Shown here piece by piece: positions 1 to 5,063 of a stretch of DNA of 5,063 bases. Position numbers and translations under genes: made by a program. Source of the stretch: an uncultured Odoribacter sp. (lineage in GTDB: Bacteria; Bacteroidota; Bacteroidia; Bacteroidales; Marinifilaceae); NCBI GenBank assembly GCA_905204385.1, contig CAJKZL010000274.1:1-5063 (forward strand), given 5' to 3'. A model generated the notes under the pieces. That model saw only the letters and a program-made list of their open reading frames with translations, made no database searches and had not been told where the DNA came from. Position 1 is the stretch's first letter. Each line of letters starts with the position of its first letter.

Positions 1-2236
1 GTCCCTGTCGGGTAGGAGTCCATACCCAGGCTGATAAATAATCGAAAAATTCTTCTGCAGTATAGGTATCCTTACTCTTCTCAGCCAGGAAAAACATATA
101 CTCGATCCGTCCGAAGATCTCACCGAATATACGGCCCATCAGCAGACTAGAAGGATCATTGGCTAAATCGGGATTGCGCAGGATTTGCCCCAATCCGAAC
201 TCTTTCTTATCTGTCAGCCAGCTCAGCATCAGATCAGTATATTTTTTCTGCTCAGCGCGTGTGGCAATGTTCATAGTAATCCCATCGCTACCATAATCGA
301 CCACCATACCTCCGATGTGCGACACCAGCATCCGGGCATAAGTGAAAATATTCTGCACCATGGCAAGACTGAGTTCCATCCGTTTTTTATAATTCAGGTC
401 TCCGTCAGCACACCAGGATTCGATGTGTTTTAATGCATACCGGGTGTTTTTCATAAACTGTTTCATCGCCGTATAATGGTCATCGCTGATCAAACCCGAA
501 ATAACAGACGGATCGTACATCAAACGGTTTGCCGGTGCATAAGCACAATTGGGATTCCCCTTTTCGGCTGTTATCCAGCTATCCAGTACCGGCAATTCTT
601 CTTCGGCAGTCTTTGCTTCAAAGACTGGCGCATAAAGCCATTTTATCGCGTAACGGTCGTACTCGCCCGGTCCTTTCGGAATCAGTCGTACTCCTTTTTC
701 AACATCCTTCTCCTCTGCAATGTAATTGTATTCCAGATAATGCATAATAGATGGAGTCACTCCGTACTTCTGAGTAAAGGTTACAGACCGCAACGAATCC
801 AGGGGAAAAGCACTGCCTACCTTATAATTGCTACTTAATCCCAGACATTTACCGGCAAGCTGGGTCATATAGGCTTTCATCAGTTCATACCGAAGTTCCG
901 ACGGGAAGGCACTATTGGTCCGGGCCCTGGCATCCGAGGCTATAGCAGCTCTTTTATAAGTGAATTCCAGAGTTTTCATCAATTCACAATTCATGACAAT
1001 AGGAGTATTCAGGATTTCCCCACTCCGGATATCTGCCAATACGGTATGTTTCGCATATCCTTTCCACAACACAGAATACCAGATCATGCAATGCCGGACA
1101 TCCATCGGGTCAAAGGAAGGATCATCCCGGGGATAAGCCTTCACCTGAATCACATCCTTGAAACCGATAGCTTCGAATGCTTCATTCCAGGCTTCCATAC
1201 CGTCCTTCACTGCTTTCTGCCAATCGGCAGGAATCAAGGTATCCATATAAAACACGATAGGCTTACGGGGAGCGACTAATGTTCCGGCACGATAGGCCGC
1301 CGTGTCCGACGGTTCCAAACGCCAGCGCATCGCATAATTTTTACGCACAAATCCCTGTCCGGCATCGTCGATCCCGTTCATCGCCAGCATCATCGTCCCG
1401 ATGCGCGAATCTGAATATCTCGGCCGCATAGGGGTCTCCGGCAACAACCACAAAATCCGGTCGGACAACACATCGATGGGCCGGTTTCTCTGGATATTCA
1501 CCGCTCCCAGCATATTATAATCCGTAAAATAGTGAAAGTCGGCTGTCACCACAAGCTGATCCGTCCGCGACTTCACTGTTTTCAGTTTGCTCATATCCGC
1601 CTGCAACCTGTAATTACGCTGATTATATCCCCCAAAGGCATTGCTTCCTCCAGCGTCAAACGGACTGGTATATTCCGTATGATCCATAAACAGTTTCGTC
1701 ATGTCTACCACAACGGCACTGCTATCCGGAGTATAAGCCAGAATTTTCAGCGTTTGCCAGACACCGGGGGTATTGGCAGCCTGCAGAGCTCCCCCGATAT
1801 TCTCCTCTTCACTGTCATTCAACAAAAGCGGTTCTCTTTTCAACCGGATCAGCAAAGCAGAATCCCGGCGGCTAAAGTTCAGATAAAGATAATTATTCAA
1901 TTGACCCACAATTCCTTCACCGACATCACTGATTTCATGAATTCCCGTTGTAAACATAAACTCTCTTCCCAACAATCTACAGGGAAATTCGACATACACT
2001 TTTTCTTTTCCGCGTTCCCGGACAGCATGGATGGTCATCAATCCTCCCTTTGAACTGTCAACCTTTTTACCCCTGAAAAGCCTATTGTATGCCTGTTCCC
2101 CGGCAGTAGTCTGCATTACCGGGGCAGGTTGTTTTTGTTTACTCCGGCGCTGCGCCATCCCTGAAGATTGAAAAAACAGCAACAATAGAAAACAGCATAT
2201 CCACACAAACACAACTCTGTATTTCATATCTTTCAT
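1..2236 (-). CDS. Zinc-site-dead Met-zincin paralogue (predicted pseudoprotease), partial at the left edge
   Basis: The gene is open for 745 codons and runs off the window. By comparison with the upstream paralogue, about 150 codons are missing. Residues 8-22 are hydrophobic (VVFVWICCFLLLLFF), and signal peptidase I cleavage is plausible after GMA (residue 28). The domain order matches the neighbour: DUF5118-like (YNRLFRGKK, about 50-86), DUF5117-like (ending LLPETPMRPR, about 273), RWRLEPSDTAAYR at 304-316, and a zincin-like region containing RSGEI (404-408), PLDSLRS, FTQKYG, SIMHY (M498) and YAIKWLY. Aligned without gaps to the neighbour's site, the zinc motif reads QLAGKCLGLSS: H to Q459, E to L460, H to K463, H to S469. 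Zinc binding and peptide hydrolysis by the usual mechanism are therefore not expected. The long intact frame argues for a selected, non-catalytic role such as partner, inhibitor or binding protein, which is inference. The start at 2236 lies one base after the upstream stop with no clear Shine-Dalgarno. ATG 2227 (MKYRVV) is the alternative. Confidence 0.9.
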   Translation of the reverse strand, partial: MKDMKYRVVFVWICCFLLLLFFQSSGMAQRRSKQKQPAPVMQTTAGEQAYNRLFRGKKVDSSKGGLMTIHAVRERGKEKVYVEFPCRLLGREFMFTTGIHEISDVGEGIVGQLNNYLYLNFSRRDSALLIRLKREPLLLNDSEEENIGGALQAANTPGVWQTLKILAYTPDSSAVVVDMTKLFMDHTEYTSPFDAGGSNAFGGYNQRNYRLQADMSKLKTVKSRTDQLVVTADFHYFTDYNMLGAVNIQRNRPIDVLSDRILWLLPETPMRPRYSDSRIGTMMLAMNGIDDAGQGFVRKNYAMRWRLEPSDTAAYRAGTLVAPRKPIVFYMDTLIPADWQKAVKDGMEAWNEAFEAIGFKDVIQVKAYPRDDPSFDPMDVRHCMIWYSVLWKGYAKHTVLADIRSGEILNTPIVMNCELMKTLEFTYKRAAIASDARARTNSAFPSELRYELMKAYMTQLAGKCLGLSSNYKVGSAFPLDSLRSVTFTQKYGVTPSIMHYLEYNYIAEEKDVEKGVRLIPKGPGEYDRYAIKWLYAPVFEAKTAEEELPVLDSWITAEKGNPNCAYAPANRLMYDPSVISGLISDDHYTAMKQFMKNTRYALKHIESWCADGDLNYKKRMELSLAMVQNIFTYARMLVSHIGGMVVDYGSDGITMNIATRAEQKKYTDLMLSWLTDKKEFGLGQILRNPDLANDPSSLLMGRIFGEIFGRIEYMFFLAEKSKDTYTAEEFFDYLSAWVWTPTRQG

Positions 2237-2240
2237 TTTA
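2228..2240 (-). repeat. Stop/start junction, copy 2 (TAAAATGAAAGAT)
   Basis: The TAA of the intact protease is followed by one base and then the ATG of the dead paralogue. It matches the junction at 4917-4929 in 12 of 13 positions. No convincing Shine-Dalgarno lies upstream; the preceding bases (AATGAGAAA) are A-rich, so translation probably depends on coupling or on an A-rich leader. There is no room for a promoter or terminator between the two genes, so they must share an mRNA. Confidence 0.5.
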
Positions 2241-4925
2241 TTTCTCATTAAACATCCGGTTGAGTTTGAAGATCATCAGCCGGTAATAATCCCGGGTGTC
2301 ACCGGAACCTGTAGAAGCTTTTTCTTTCATCAGCCGTTCTATTTTGCGGAGTAAGCTATAATAGTAATAATCTACGGGATAACTTCCCGGAGACAATTGA
2401 GGTTCCCCAAAACCCATAAATTCTTCCTGTCCGGCATAGGATTCTGAGACGATTTCCCTGTTCGAAAACATTCCGGCCATATTTTCGGGAATATCCCCAT
2501 AGTCTGCGCGGCTATTGGCTTTCACAACATCCGGTATTTCCACCCGGCAGGCAAAAGCCTTGGTGGAAGCACTGATGTCTGTTCCCTTCATTCCCTTCCG
2601 ATTCATCGCTGCCGAACGGTAAAGCTGATCGATAAACTTCATCTGCAATTTTTTCTCCACATCACTCAACGTCTTTCCCTGCATCGTCGGACGCATAAAA
2701 TGGCGGTAAAGATCGTCCATATACAACTTTCGGGTATAGGCATCCTTCCCGGCTTTTTCTTCACAGATCACCACATTTCCCAACGCTTTCATCAAGGCAT
2801 TGAAAAGGGCATCCTCCAACTGTCCTGAAATGTTTCCGACTATAGGGTATCCCCGTTGCAGACTCATTGAATTAATCCACGACAGATCATCCAGTTGGTC
2901 CAGTAAAAACTGAACAGATTGCCTCTGTTTCTCCCGTGCTACCGGTTCATAAGCCGGCAAAGCATCGCCGTCGTAACGCTGATTCAGATAAATTCCTCCG
3001 ATATTCAGGGCCACATGATTCAGATAACGGAAATACTGATAAACAATCTCATTATAAATACGCTGGCGGAAAGCATAATCCTTATCCTCCCCATTTGTCC
3101 ATTCATCCAGGTGTTTCATAATATATTTCAGGTTCTTCACCCCATACGCAGCGGCTTTGACCGCATCATCCCCCAAATCTTCTTCCACAGAAGAAGGGTC
3201 GATGCGCAGCCCGATCTGTTGTTTTCCGTAACGGTAGACCGGATCGCCCGATTTTTCTGTAATCCAGCGGTCCAGCACTATTACTTCCTCCTGCGGAGTT
3301 TTCGCATCCAACAAAGGAGTATACAGCCATTTAATGGCATAATAATCATACAATCCCAAATCGGGAGGTGTCAGTTTCACCCCTCTTTCCTTATCTCCCG
3401 GTTGGGCAACATAATTATTCCGGGCATAATCCATAATAGAGTAAGTGGTCCCATGCTTTTGTGTAAACGAAGGCGACCGCAGGGAATCCACCGGAATAGC
3501 CGCCGAGGCCGACATATTATGCATCAGGGCAAGCGTATGTCCCACTTCGTGTGCGACGACATACCGTAAACCTTCTCCCAATATTTCATCGGTGAGATGC
3601 ACACCCCTGACCTCCGGGTCGGCAGCCGCCGTCTGTATCAACCGCCAGCTTTGCAGCATATCCACAATATTATGATAGATATAAACGGTAGCATGTATAA
3701 TTTCACCGGTGCGGGGGTCCACAACCGGCATCCCCATTGCATTGGCAACAGCCGTCGGACAATACCGGACACAGGTATATTTAAAATTTTCCGGATCGAA
3801 TTCCGGGTCATCTTTCGGAAAATCCCGGGCAATAATGGCATTTTTAAAACCGATTTTTTCAAATGCTTTTTGCCAGATCTCGATTCCCGATTTGATATAA
3901 GCCTTCCATGCTTCCGGGAATTTATCATCCACATAATAAACGACAGGCTGTTTCGGTTCCACCAGTTCTCCTCTGCGATAGGCTTCCTCATCGCGGGGTT
4001 CAAGCCGGCGCCTCCAGGCATACATCAAGGGTTCGGTCCCGATACCGGGTTCAAAATGGATCATCCGCTGCGAGAACACCCCGATCCGGTAATCCGCCAG
4101 CCGCGGGCGCATGGGGTTCTCAGGCAACAAATGAATGCTACGGGTCATCAATGCCGTGAAAGGACGTTTACTGACATACGGACGCTTTTCTTTGGCACCG
4201 CGTACACTCACCGAATAAGACAACAGGCTGCGGATACTCACATTATCCCGGAAAGCCTTTATCCCTTCAAGCATCGAATTTTCCCGGCTGAAACTCTTGT
4301 CCAGTTGCCGCTGTCCCCCGGCCAAAGCCGGGGAATGCGGGTAAAATGGATCCAGATACTCCTTATCGCTGACAAAAAAATTGGTCATATCGATCACGAC
4401 AGCAGAGCTATCCGGATTGTAAGCCAGCACTTTATACTTCTCCAATATGGGAGCTTTCATATTCAATGCCAGCCGTTGTTCAATATTTTTATCACCGGTG
4501 ATACAAATACTGTTGGCACCGCTCAGCATATTTACTGCCGAATCGGCCAATGAGAAAATGACATGTACTGCCGGATGAGGAATTTCACCGACATTACCGA
4601 AACGGTTATCCGAAATTTCACTGACTGTGGAAGCTATCAGCATGTCCTTATTCATCTCCTTCAGAGGAAACTCGACATACAGTTTCCCCTCCACCTTATG
4701 CAAAGTCAGTAAACCTTTTACCGTTTCAGCTTTTTTCCCGGCGAATAAACGCTCATAAGGGGTTTGCCGGCGTGCTTGCGGTTGAGCCACCGTTTCCGGC
4801 TGTTTTTTGTTTTTTCTTTTCCATATTCCTTCTGCACCGGAAGCCATCAAAGCCCCCTCACCCAGCAAAGAAATTACTAATACTAAAATAAATGTCTTCA
4901 TTCTCATTATTATATCATCCTTCAT
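2238..4925 (-). CDS. Exported zinc-dependent metalloprotease, DUF5118/DUF5117/Met-zincin type, catalytically intact
   Basis: This is an 895-residue predicted exported metallopeptidase; its substrate is unknown. Residues 1-10 are charged, 11-27 are hydrophobic (FILVLVISLL core), and signal cleavage is likely near residues 27-31. There is no lipobox cysteine, so a periplasmic or secreted protein is expected. A basic, Gln-rich linker (about 35-53) follows, then a DUF5118-like segment (about 55-97, PYERLFAGKK and KLYVEFP), a DUF5117-like segment (about 98-290, ending in LLPENPMRPR), and the zincin domain. The zinc site is HEVGHTLALMH, with H459, E460, H463 and H469. The Met-turn is SIMDY (M498), and the DPRTGEI strand motif is at 403-409. 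The C-terminus is helical. I chose ATG 4925 because GGGAG at 4935-4939 lies 9 bases upstream, it follows the upstream stop by one base, and the paralogue downstream starts the same way (MKD). ATG 4907, preceded by AAGGA, is a good alternative (889 residues). ATG 4982 lies inside the upstream coding tail. Family assignment rests on recalled motifs; no search was run. Confidence 0.93.
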   Translation of the reverse strand: MKDDIIMRMKTFILVLVISLLGEGALMASGAEGIWKRKNKKQPETVAQPQARRQTPYERLFAGKKAETVKGLLTLHKVEGKLYVEFPLKEMNKDMLIASTVSEISDNRFGNVGEIPHPAVHVIFSLADSAVNMLSGANSICITGDKNIEQRLALNMKAPILEKYKVLAYNPDSSAVVIDMTNFFVSDKEYLDPFYPHSPALAGGQRQLDKSFSRENSMLEGIKAFRDNVSIRSLLSYSVSVRGAKEKRPYVSKRPFTALMTRSIHLLPENPMRPRLADYRIGVFSQRMIHFEPGIGTEPLMYAWRRRLEPRDEEAYRRGELVEPKQPVVYYVDDKFPEAWKAYIKSGIEIWQKAFEKIGFKNAIIARDFPKDDPEFDPENFKYTCVRYCPTAVANAMGMPVVDPRTGEIIHATVYIYHNIVDMLQSWRLIQTAAADPEVRGVHLTDEILGEGLRYVVAHEVGHTLALMHNMSASAAIPVDSLRSPSFTQKHGTTYSIMDYARNNYVAQPGDKERGVKLTPPDLGLYDYYAIKWLYTPLLDAKTPQEEVIVLDRWITEKSGDPVYRYGKQQIGLRIDPSSVEEDLGDDAVKAAAYGVKNLKYIMKHLDEWTNGEDKDYAFRQRIYNEIVYQYFRYLNHVALNIGGIYLNQRYDGDALPAYEPVAREKQRQSVQFLLDQLDDLSWINSMSLQRGYPIVGNISGQLEDALFNALMKALGNVVICEEKAGKDAYTRKLYMDDLYRHFMRPTMQGKTLSDVEKKLQMKFIDQLYRSAAMNRKGMKGTDISASTKAFACRVEIPDVVKANSRADYGDIPENMAGMFSNREIVSESYAGQEEFMGFGEPQLSPGSYPVDYYYYSLLRKIERLMKEKASTGSGDTRDYYRLMIFKLNRMFNEK

Positions 4926-4929: not shown

Positions 4930-5058
4930 TTCTTCTCCCAATATAGAAGCATACTTGGGTAAATCCACCCGGTAATTTTCAATCATATATTTCACAACAA
5001 TATCATATTTCAGGTTTATGATCTCATGACCTTTCCGGACCAGCGGATCTTCGGCATC
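4927..5058 (-). CDS. C-terminal tail of an upstream gene, possibly a SusC/D-associated zinc metallohydrolase lipoprotein (partial)
   Basis: Forty-three codons read open to a TAA at 4927-4929, beginning DAEDPLVRKGHEII and ending DLPKYASILGEE. The piece lies on the same strand as the two proteases and ends one base before the next ATG. The pattern K..IV..YM....R.DL..Y..I resembles the C-terminus I associate with the Bacteroidetes zinc metallohydrolase lipoproteins of SusC/SusD operons (PF15890 / TIGR04549 type). That match is from memory over a short stretch and is tentative. The catalytic part would lie outside the window. A TAG codon sits in frame immediately upstream (5059-5061), and no ATG occurs before the internal one at 4986-4988. 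The tail is therefore either the remnant of a gene interrupted by a nonsense or frameshift change, or affected by a sequence error at the edge. The other two frames of this strand also close within about 50 bases. Confidence 0.4.
   Translation of the reverse strand, partial: DAEDPLVRKGHEIINLKYDIVVKYMIENYRVDLPKYASILGEE
4935..4939 (-). promoter_or_regulatory. Ribosome binding site of the intact metalloprotease
   Basis: GGGAG lies 9 bases before ATG 4925, inside the last codons of the upstream tail (ATATTGGGAGAAGAATAAAATG). It supports 4925 over the longer start at 4982. A second purine patch, AAGGA at 4918-4922, sits 10 bases before ATG 4907, so initiation at 4907 cannot be excluded. Such sites are usually weak in Bacteroidetes, so this is only moderate support. 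Confidence 0.5.
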
Positions 5059-5063
5059 CTACG

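Follow-up and report, generated by a model that had tools for sequence, protein, structure and literature searches.

Two tandem Met-zincin genes in an Odoribacter contig

The stretch of DNA examined here, referred to as the window, comprises 5,063 nucleotides of a contig (CAJKZL010000274.1) from an uncultured Odoribacter sp. Its minus strand carries two tandem genes of like architecture, which encode an export-type N-terminus, DUF5118, DUF5117 and a Met-zincin domain (PF16313), and, farther upstream, a third gene of which only the final 43 codons lie inside the window. The first Met-zincin gene (2238–4901, −), delineated from its open reading frame, alignment, Pfam matches, predicted model and junction sequence, has an aligned, intact zinc site, HEVGHTLALMH (3519–3551, −). 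Its downstream paralogue (2–2248, −), recognized from its open reading frame, Pfam matches, the AlphaFold model of the relative P0001 and a hydrophobic, signal-type N-terminus, reads QLAGKCLGLSS at the former zinc-site helix (830–862, −): all three His ligands and the catalytic Glu are replaced (H459Q, E460L, H463K, H469S), and G462, L465, L467 and N470 are retained. This substitution had been put forward in an earlier sequence-only reading of the window and was confirmed by translation and alignment; relatives and column conservation bear on it below. We favour, with moderate confidence, the view that the product of this gene is an exported Met-zincin without catalytic activity, and that it serves as partner subunit to the active Met-zincin from the adjoining upstream gene. 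The components of this view that are established are the lost zinc site, the preserved predicted fold, the conserved sequence, the export-type N-terminus, adjacency, co-inheritance and recurrence.

The genes overlap or abut at their junction. If the dead gene starts at its first ATG (2248) it overlaps the end of the partner by 11 bases, and its alternative start at 2236 lies one base past the partner stop codon (2238–2240). A frame open for 745 codons had been claimed previously; its openness was borne out, but its length was corrected to 749 codons from the first ATG, after which it meets the window edge. The C-terminal end of the dead gene lies beyond this edge, and P0001, a full-length relative with an identical site, has 874 residues. 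The open frame of the partner extends to 4982, with possible ATG starts at 4925, 4907 and 4901. When the proteins are numbered from MKDMKY (2236) and MKDDII (4925), both sites lie at residue 459 and both Met-turn methionines at 498, and this methionine is kept in the dead copy (codon 743–745, −; PSIMHY aligned with YSIMDY). The alignment is ungapped from zinc helix to Met-turn, as reported earlier, the pairwise gaps lying further upstream, and the proteins share the same residue at 253 of 738 aligned positions.

Met-zincins (MEROPS subclan MA(M)) are defined, in the text of PMC3890501 available to us, by HEXXH plus a third His ligand. The dead copy has the Met-turn methionine of this subclan and, according to its predicted model, the zincin fold; the catalytic pattern HExxHxxxxxH is missing from it and from all 120 relatives whose sites were examined among the matches listed (432 found). 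Comparison with PF16313, PF17148 and PF17162, the check proposed with the original observation, placed both proteins above the curated Pfam cut-offs, the dead copy scoring 180.4, 102.6 and 29.3 bits, respectively (cut-offs 24.2, 27 and 27), and M16 was absent from the Pfam matches of both at E ≤ 0.001. The AlphaFold model of P0001, 98% identical to the dead protein, has a predicted local distance difference test score (pLDDT) of 86.9, and the partner model one of 89.1. Foldseek with the dead-copy model gave no match at E ≤ 0.001 and no relative of the dead copy with a solved structure was found by sequence at E ≤ 1; a profile of the active copies matched metzincins of solved structure around the HExxH helix only (best E 0.0043). 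The dead copy shares the full architecture of the 'zinc-dependent metalloprotease' proteins of the Bacteroidota covered by the three Pfam families, but differs from them in lacking the zinc ligands and catalytic Glu. For this reason the name is, judged by sequence, wrong for the dead copy of the window, and databases apply it to dead relatives too (e.g., P0003, P0028). Automatic annotation is thereby corrected, and protease gene counts taken from it overstate activity; the family concerned has 45 profile matches in the genome of one Butyricimonas species and 54 in that of another.

The closest named relatives of the dead protein are Butyricimonas proteins. P0001, which represents 18 member sequences, differs from it at 14 of 745 residues, none of them in the site; in P0002, at 78% identity, the four catalytic positions read QLKN. 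Because the loss recurs in these independent sequences, a sequencing or assembly error can be dismissed. A lone recent mutant among orthologues that keep HExxH, another alternative considered earlier, is likewise discounted, since HExxH occurs in none of the 120 listed relatives. None of these has any of the three ligand His either. As to the conservation of QLAGK-like sites, which had been proposed as a measure, the loss itself is shared, but QLAGK is not a conserved new motif. When a second kind of dead copy was used as query, 66 proteins without the four-position state HEHH were found among the 120 matches listed and examined (of 1800).

Occurrence and origins of dead copies

Copies of the family were surveyed in 13 genomes, namely those of Butyricimonas sp. 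Marseille-P3923 (G001), B. synergistica (G003), Sanguibacteroides and ten further relatives. This choice was non-random, three genomes having entered via named loci and ten by candidate numbers from 56 genomes; a first genome scan with a single sequence had given no matches. The choice of regions drew on 226 PF16313 matches less four that were short or weak, although one of these four, from G003, came back as L119; in all, 224 open frames of the family were recovered. Only frames of at least 450 residues with E up to 1e-20 were counted, which means that a partner next to a 'solitary' copy may have escaped notice if it is very diverged. At the four positions 180 of the 224 frames were HEHH, 4 were HEHD or HEHN, and 40, distributed over 10 of the 13 genomes (clade I 18, clade II 18, clade III 2, others 2), were without any ligand His.

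Read in the direction of transcription, the survey comprised 102 solitary intact copies, 36 intact-dead pairs, 15 tandem runs without a dead copy and three mixed runs, one each of intact-dead-intact-dead-intact, intact-intact-dead and intact-dead-intact. Each of the 40 dead copies is immediately preceded by an intact copy on its strand, the first gene of each of the 54 tandem runs is intact and none of the 102 solitary copies is dead (Fisher p = 1.2e-12, with rows that are not independent). The arrangement expected of an active/inactive peptidase pair, neighbouring intact and motif-less homologues in a conserved unit, was thus found for 40/40 dead copies. Outside these genomes two further pairs were encountered (L221, L222), the latter with the intact copy before the dead one.

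This arrangement bears on the possibility that the dead copy works alone in an import system, binding peptides or glycoproteins, and is co-transcribed with the protease without touching it, adjacency resulting from shared regulation. Such a role would suit the conserved, export-like dead copies, and SusC-/SusD-type genes precede the pair in 4/5 clade I loci whose context was inspected (profile matches in L001 and L003, visual identification in L002 and L005) and lie downstream of it, by eye, in the fifth (L004). However, a free binder would be expected sometimes to occur without an intact neighbour, which none of the 102 solitary copies exemplifies, and we regard this explanation as rather unlikely, albeit as the most serious competitor of a partner subunit.

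Family size differs strongly among genomes. G001, G002 and G003 have 45, 17 and 54 PF16313 matches, and in a sample of 119 genomes of the order that includes G001, the 18 other genomes with any match have 1 to 4. With these numbers G001 and G003 stand well above most genomes sampled from the order, one exported protease family having undergone a very large expansion in them. In this order survey zinc sites were read in 7 loci only; a survey of the phylum gave a match in at least 104/198 genomes, the zinc sites of which are outside the counts given here. One locus (L223:1730-5413, in G166) holds a longer frame, of 1228 residues, that contains an intact PF16313 site.

With the zinc columns omitted, a FastTree tree of 253 rows requires the dead state to have changed at least five times, and a mixture-model tree of 48 rows, with L221 added, six times. 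The trees count changes, which we interpret as losses since HEHH is the widespread state. A single origin of all dead copies was rejected (p = 2.7e-7), as were common origins of clades I and II (p = 1e-4) and of clades I and III (p = 2e-5), unions that were named after the tree had been seen. Active-dead pairing seems to have arisen several times, a recurrence that points to the dead copy as a partner of the live one.

Graded states are found in homologous slots of triplets whose other two members are HEHH: the middle slot is HEHH (L069, L097, L101), HEHD (L091, L114) or QKNN (L070), and the third slot is HEHH (L071, L111), HEHN (L076, L086) or NNTC (L100). A recurrent, partner-linked loss of catalysis within one protease family, with such intermediates, would provide a natural case of the conversion of an enzyme into a subunit. 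Fully intact tandem runs also occur, as 6 pairs and 5 triplets (L069, L097, L101, L071, L111, L072, L095, L096, L113, L117, L118), which implies that in many lineages the tandem arrangement came without catalytic loss.

Constraint and possible function of dead copies

Column conservation was analysed for 37 dead rows of clade I (18 from loci, the window and 18 chosen database proteins) and for 16 of the 18 rows of clade II. In clade I the columns of the Glu, the second and the third ligand are among the most variable (variability percentiles 0.89, 0.95 and 0.90), and that of the first His (0.52) contains Gln in 19/37 and Arg in 10/37 rows. The helix Gly and the following Asn are kept in 37/37 rows and the Met-turn Met in 34/37; in clade II Gly is present in 9/16 and Asn in 16/16. 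Four residues that hardly or never vary among intact copies, N387, G390, R494 and E574 (numbered from the M at 4901), have mostly disappeared from dead clades I and II alike. No replacement set is conserved in clade I, which led us to reject a displaced zinc site or another set of metal ligands. The idea that the altered pocket holds another metal or performs new catalysis draws on the fact that clade I retains the Met-turn and the predicted fold, and on the Glu kept in 13/40 surveyed dead copies, but the variability of the ligand columns and the loss of the four companion residues make it very improbable.

The dead copies are under purifying selection. Of 30 ortholog pairs for which the ratio of nonsynonymous to synonymous substitution rates (dN/dS) was computed, five have dS < 1 and the rest are saturated or nearly so; in these five, which do not include the window gene, dN/dS is 0.157, 0.052, 0.095, 0.071 and 0.072 for the dead copies and 0.083, 0.023, 0.048, 0.085 and 0.048 for their partners. 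A dN/dS near 1, named earlier as a sign against maintenance, was thus not seen in copies comparable to that of the window (0.05–0.16). In a crude test for a hydrophobic export-type N-terminus 39/40 dead copies and 40/40 partners pass. The original proposal, that this is a pseudoprotease maintained for some non-catalytic role, finds support, as far as sequences can tell, in the recurrence of the site, dN/dS and the sites of relatives.

Dead and active copies have, moreover, diversified together. Their distances correlate with r 0.94 in clade I (19 pairs, including that of the window) and r 0.86 in clade II (17 of 18 pairs used), a level reached by 0/5000 shuffles, and the partner trees share 13/16 splits in clade I and 11/14 in clade II. 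Co-diversification, adjacency and export signal would equally well fit a dead copy that serves as inhibitor, pro-region-like regulator or folding helper, keeping the protease off until export or arrival of substrate. Neither sequence nor predicted fold, however, points to inhibition, an inhibitor of nearly 900 residues would be costly and 102 solitary intact copies manage without one; we consider such a function quite unlikely.

For the role that we favour, that of partner subunit, precedents of arrangement exist. The M16B heterodimers described in the available text of PMC12731061 and PMC11266112 (MPP alpha/beta, SPH2681/SPH2682, TTHA1264/TTHA1265, AlbF/AlbE) consist of homologous subunits with one zinc motif; the bacterial subunits come from neighbouring genes and the inactive MPP subunit is described as essential for function. 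The window pair resembles them in having adjacent homologous genes and a single zinc motif, a likeness of arrangement only, as the families are not homologous: M16B has another fold and the motif HxxEH, and its heterodimers are solved structures. In the Met-zincin family, unlike in M16B as presented there, intact solitary copies are abundant and the loss is recurrent within one family. The ADAM pseudopeptidases listed in PMC11266112 (Table 2: ADAM2, 11, 18, 22, 23, 32) are metzincins without HExxH that keep the Met-turn and, like dead clade I, often have Gln for the first His (QLLGL, QTLGQ). They differ in being membrane proteins of animals that carry disintegrin domains and act in adhesion or as receptors, and pairing with an active paralogue by gene adjacency is not described in the available part of that paper.

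We propose that the two proteins, from overlapping or abutting genes, would be made together and exported, and would come together in the periplasm or near the outer membrane. There they may assemble into a hetero-oligomer, the upstream copy cutting and the dead copy adding a substrate-binding or structural surface; the products probably enter via the SusC/SusD-type importer of the same operon. A more general scheme for Butyricimonas-type bacteria is offered tentatively: tandem Met-zincins may repeatedly yield obligate hetero-oligomers, one member still cutting and the other, its zinc site shed, turned into the specificity or docking subunit. Possibly together with a second HExxH-less, peptidase-like protein, the lipoprotein encoded upstream, they would form a surface machine for protein degradation that feeds the SusC/SusD importer. 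In a literature search confined largely to open papers, with subscription journals mostly outside its scope, no paper on the family or its pairing was found. The question of pseudoprotease function becomes, with this gene pair, a direct two-gene test.

Several observations weigh against a partner subunit. Contact between the proteins is something that we infer, and as the genes are linked, matched trees show co-inheritance and say little about contact. Tandem duplication by itself raises the odds of a dead copy lying next to an intact one; the low chance (about 0.003) that five origins, counted alone, would all fall in non-first tandem slots (68/224 copies) speaks for the partner view but ignores this duplication bias. 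The pair L221 is reversed, a dead copy (QEMGS, with Glu and third His kept) preceding the intact one. Besides the 13 surveyed copies mentioned above, the Glu is retained in 92/120 listed relatives, which form one near-identical Butyricimonas-type cluster (REIY). In clade II the Met-turn Met is present in only 2/16 rows and Pro occupies the third ligand position in 14/16, and no coherent patch is apparent among the 12 alignment columns of dead-specific conserved residues. Finally, dead copies evolve about 1.5 times faster, and 4/40 appear broken or shortened (L099 and L115 by an in-frame TAG; L119 and L124 short), every intact copy having an open frame of at least 753 codons, which suggests that dead copies are more dispensable. 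Together with the graded ligand loss in triplets, this faster and occasionally disrupted evolution might indicate redundant tandem duplicates in slow decay. Decay is, however, hard to reconcile with the low dN/dS in every computable pair, with partner-matched trees and with the long open frames and export-type N-termini of most dead copies, and it appears highly unlikely.

Gene neighbourhood and upstream lipoprotein

In the five clade I loci inspected for context the active-dead pair is constant and its neighbours vary. The order is FecR, SusC, SusD, a lipoprotein, the pair and two TlpA-like genes in L001; SusC, SusD (by eye), DUF4843, a PKD-like gene, the pair and an ABC gene in L002; and SusC, SusD, DUF4843, a PKD-like gene, the pair and GH92 genes in L003, to which the frames of L005 look near-identical by eye. 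In L004 the pair follows three S9-like frames, two of them scanned, and precedes an S9 gene that was scanned as well; the SusC-/SusD-like frames lie farther downstream.

The gene before the pair, represented in the window by its 43-codon tail (4930–5058, −; identified from frame, alignment and comparison with P0276-P0278) and in full at L001:6112-7254, encodes a relative of the PF15890/TIGR04549 'substrate import-associated zinc metallohydrolase' lipoproteins. The matches of such relatives to PF15890/TIGR04549 are C-terminal only and below the cut-offs. In an alignment of 51 lipoprotein sequences the corresponding site, which resembles IHxxACxFSYP, is HExxH in none; P0277 has HExxH elsewhere. 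The lipoprotein may be a second dead peptidase of the operon, a candidate for which the homology of this site to HExxH is putative. At the window edge its frame contains an in-frame stop (5059–5061, −), a sense codon in P0276-P0278, which could be a real break or a contig-end error.
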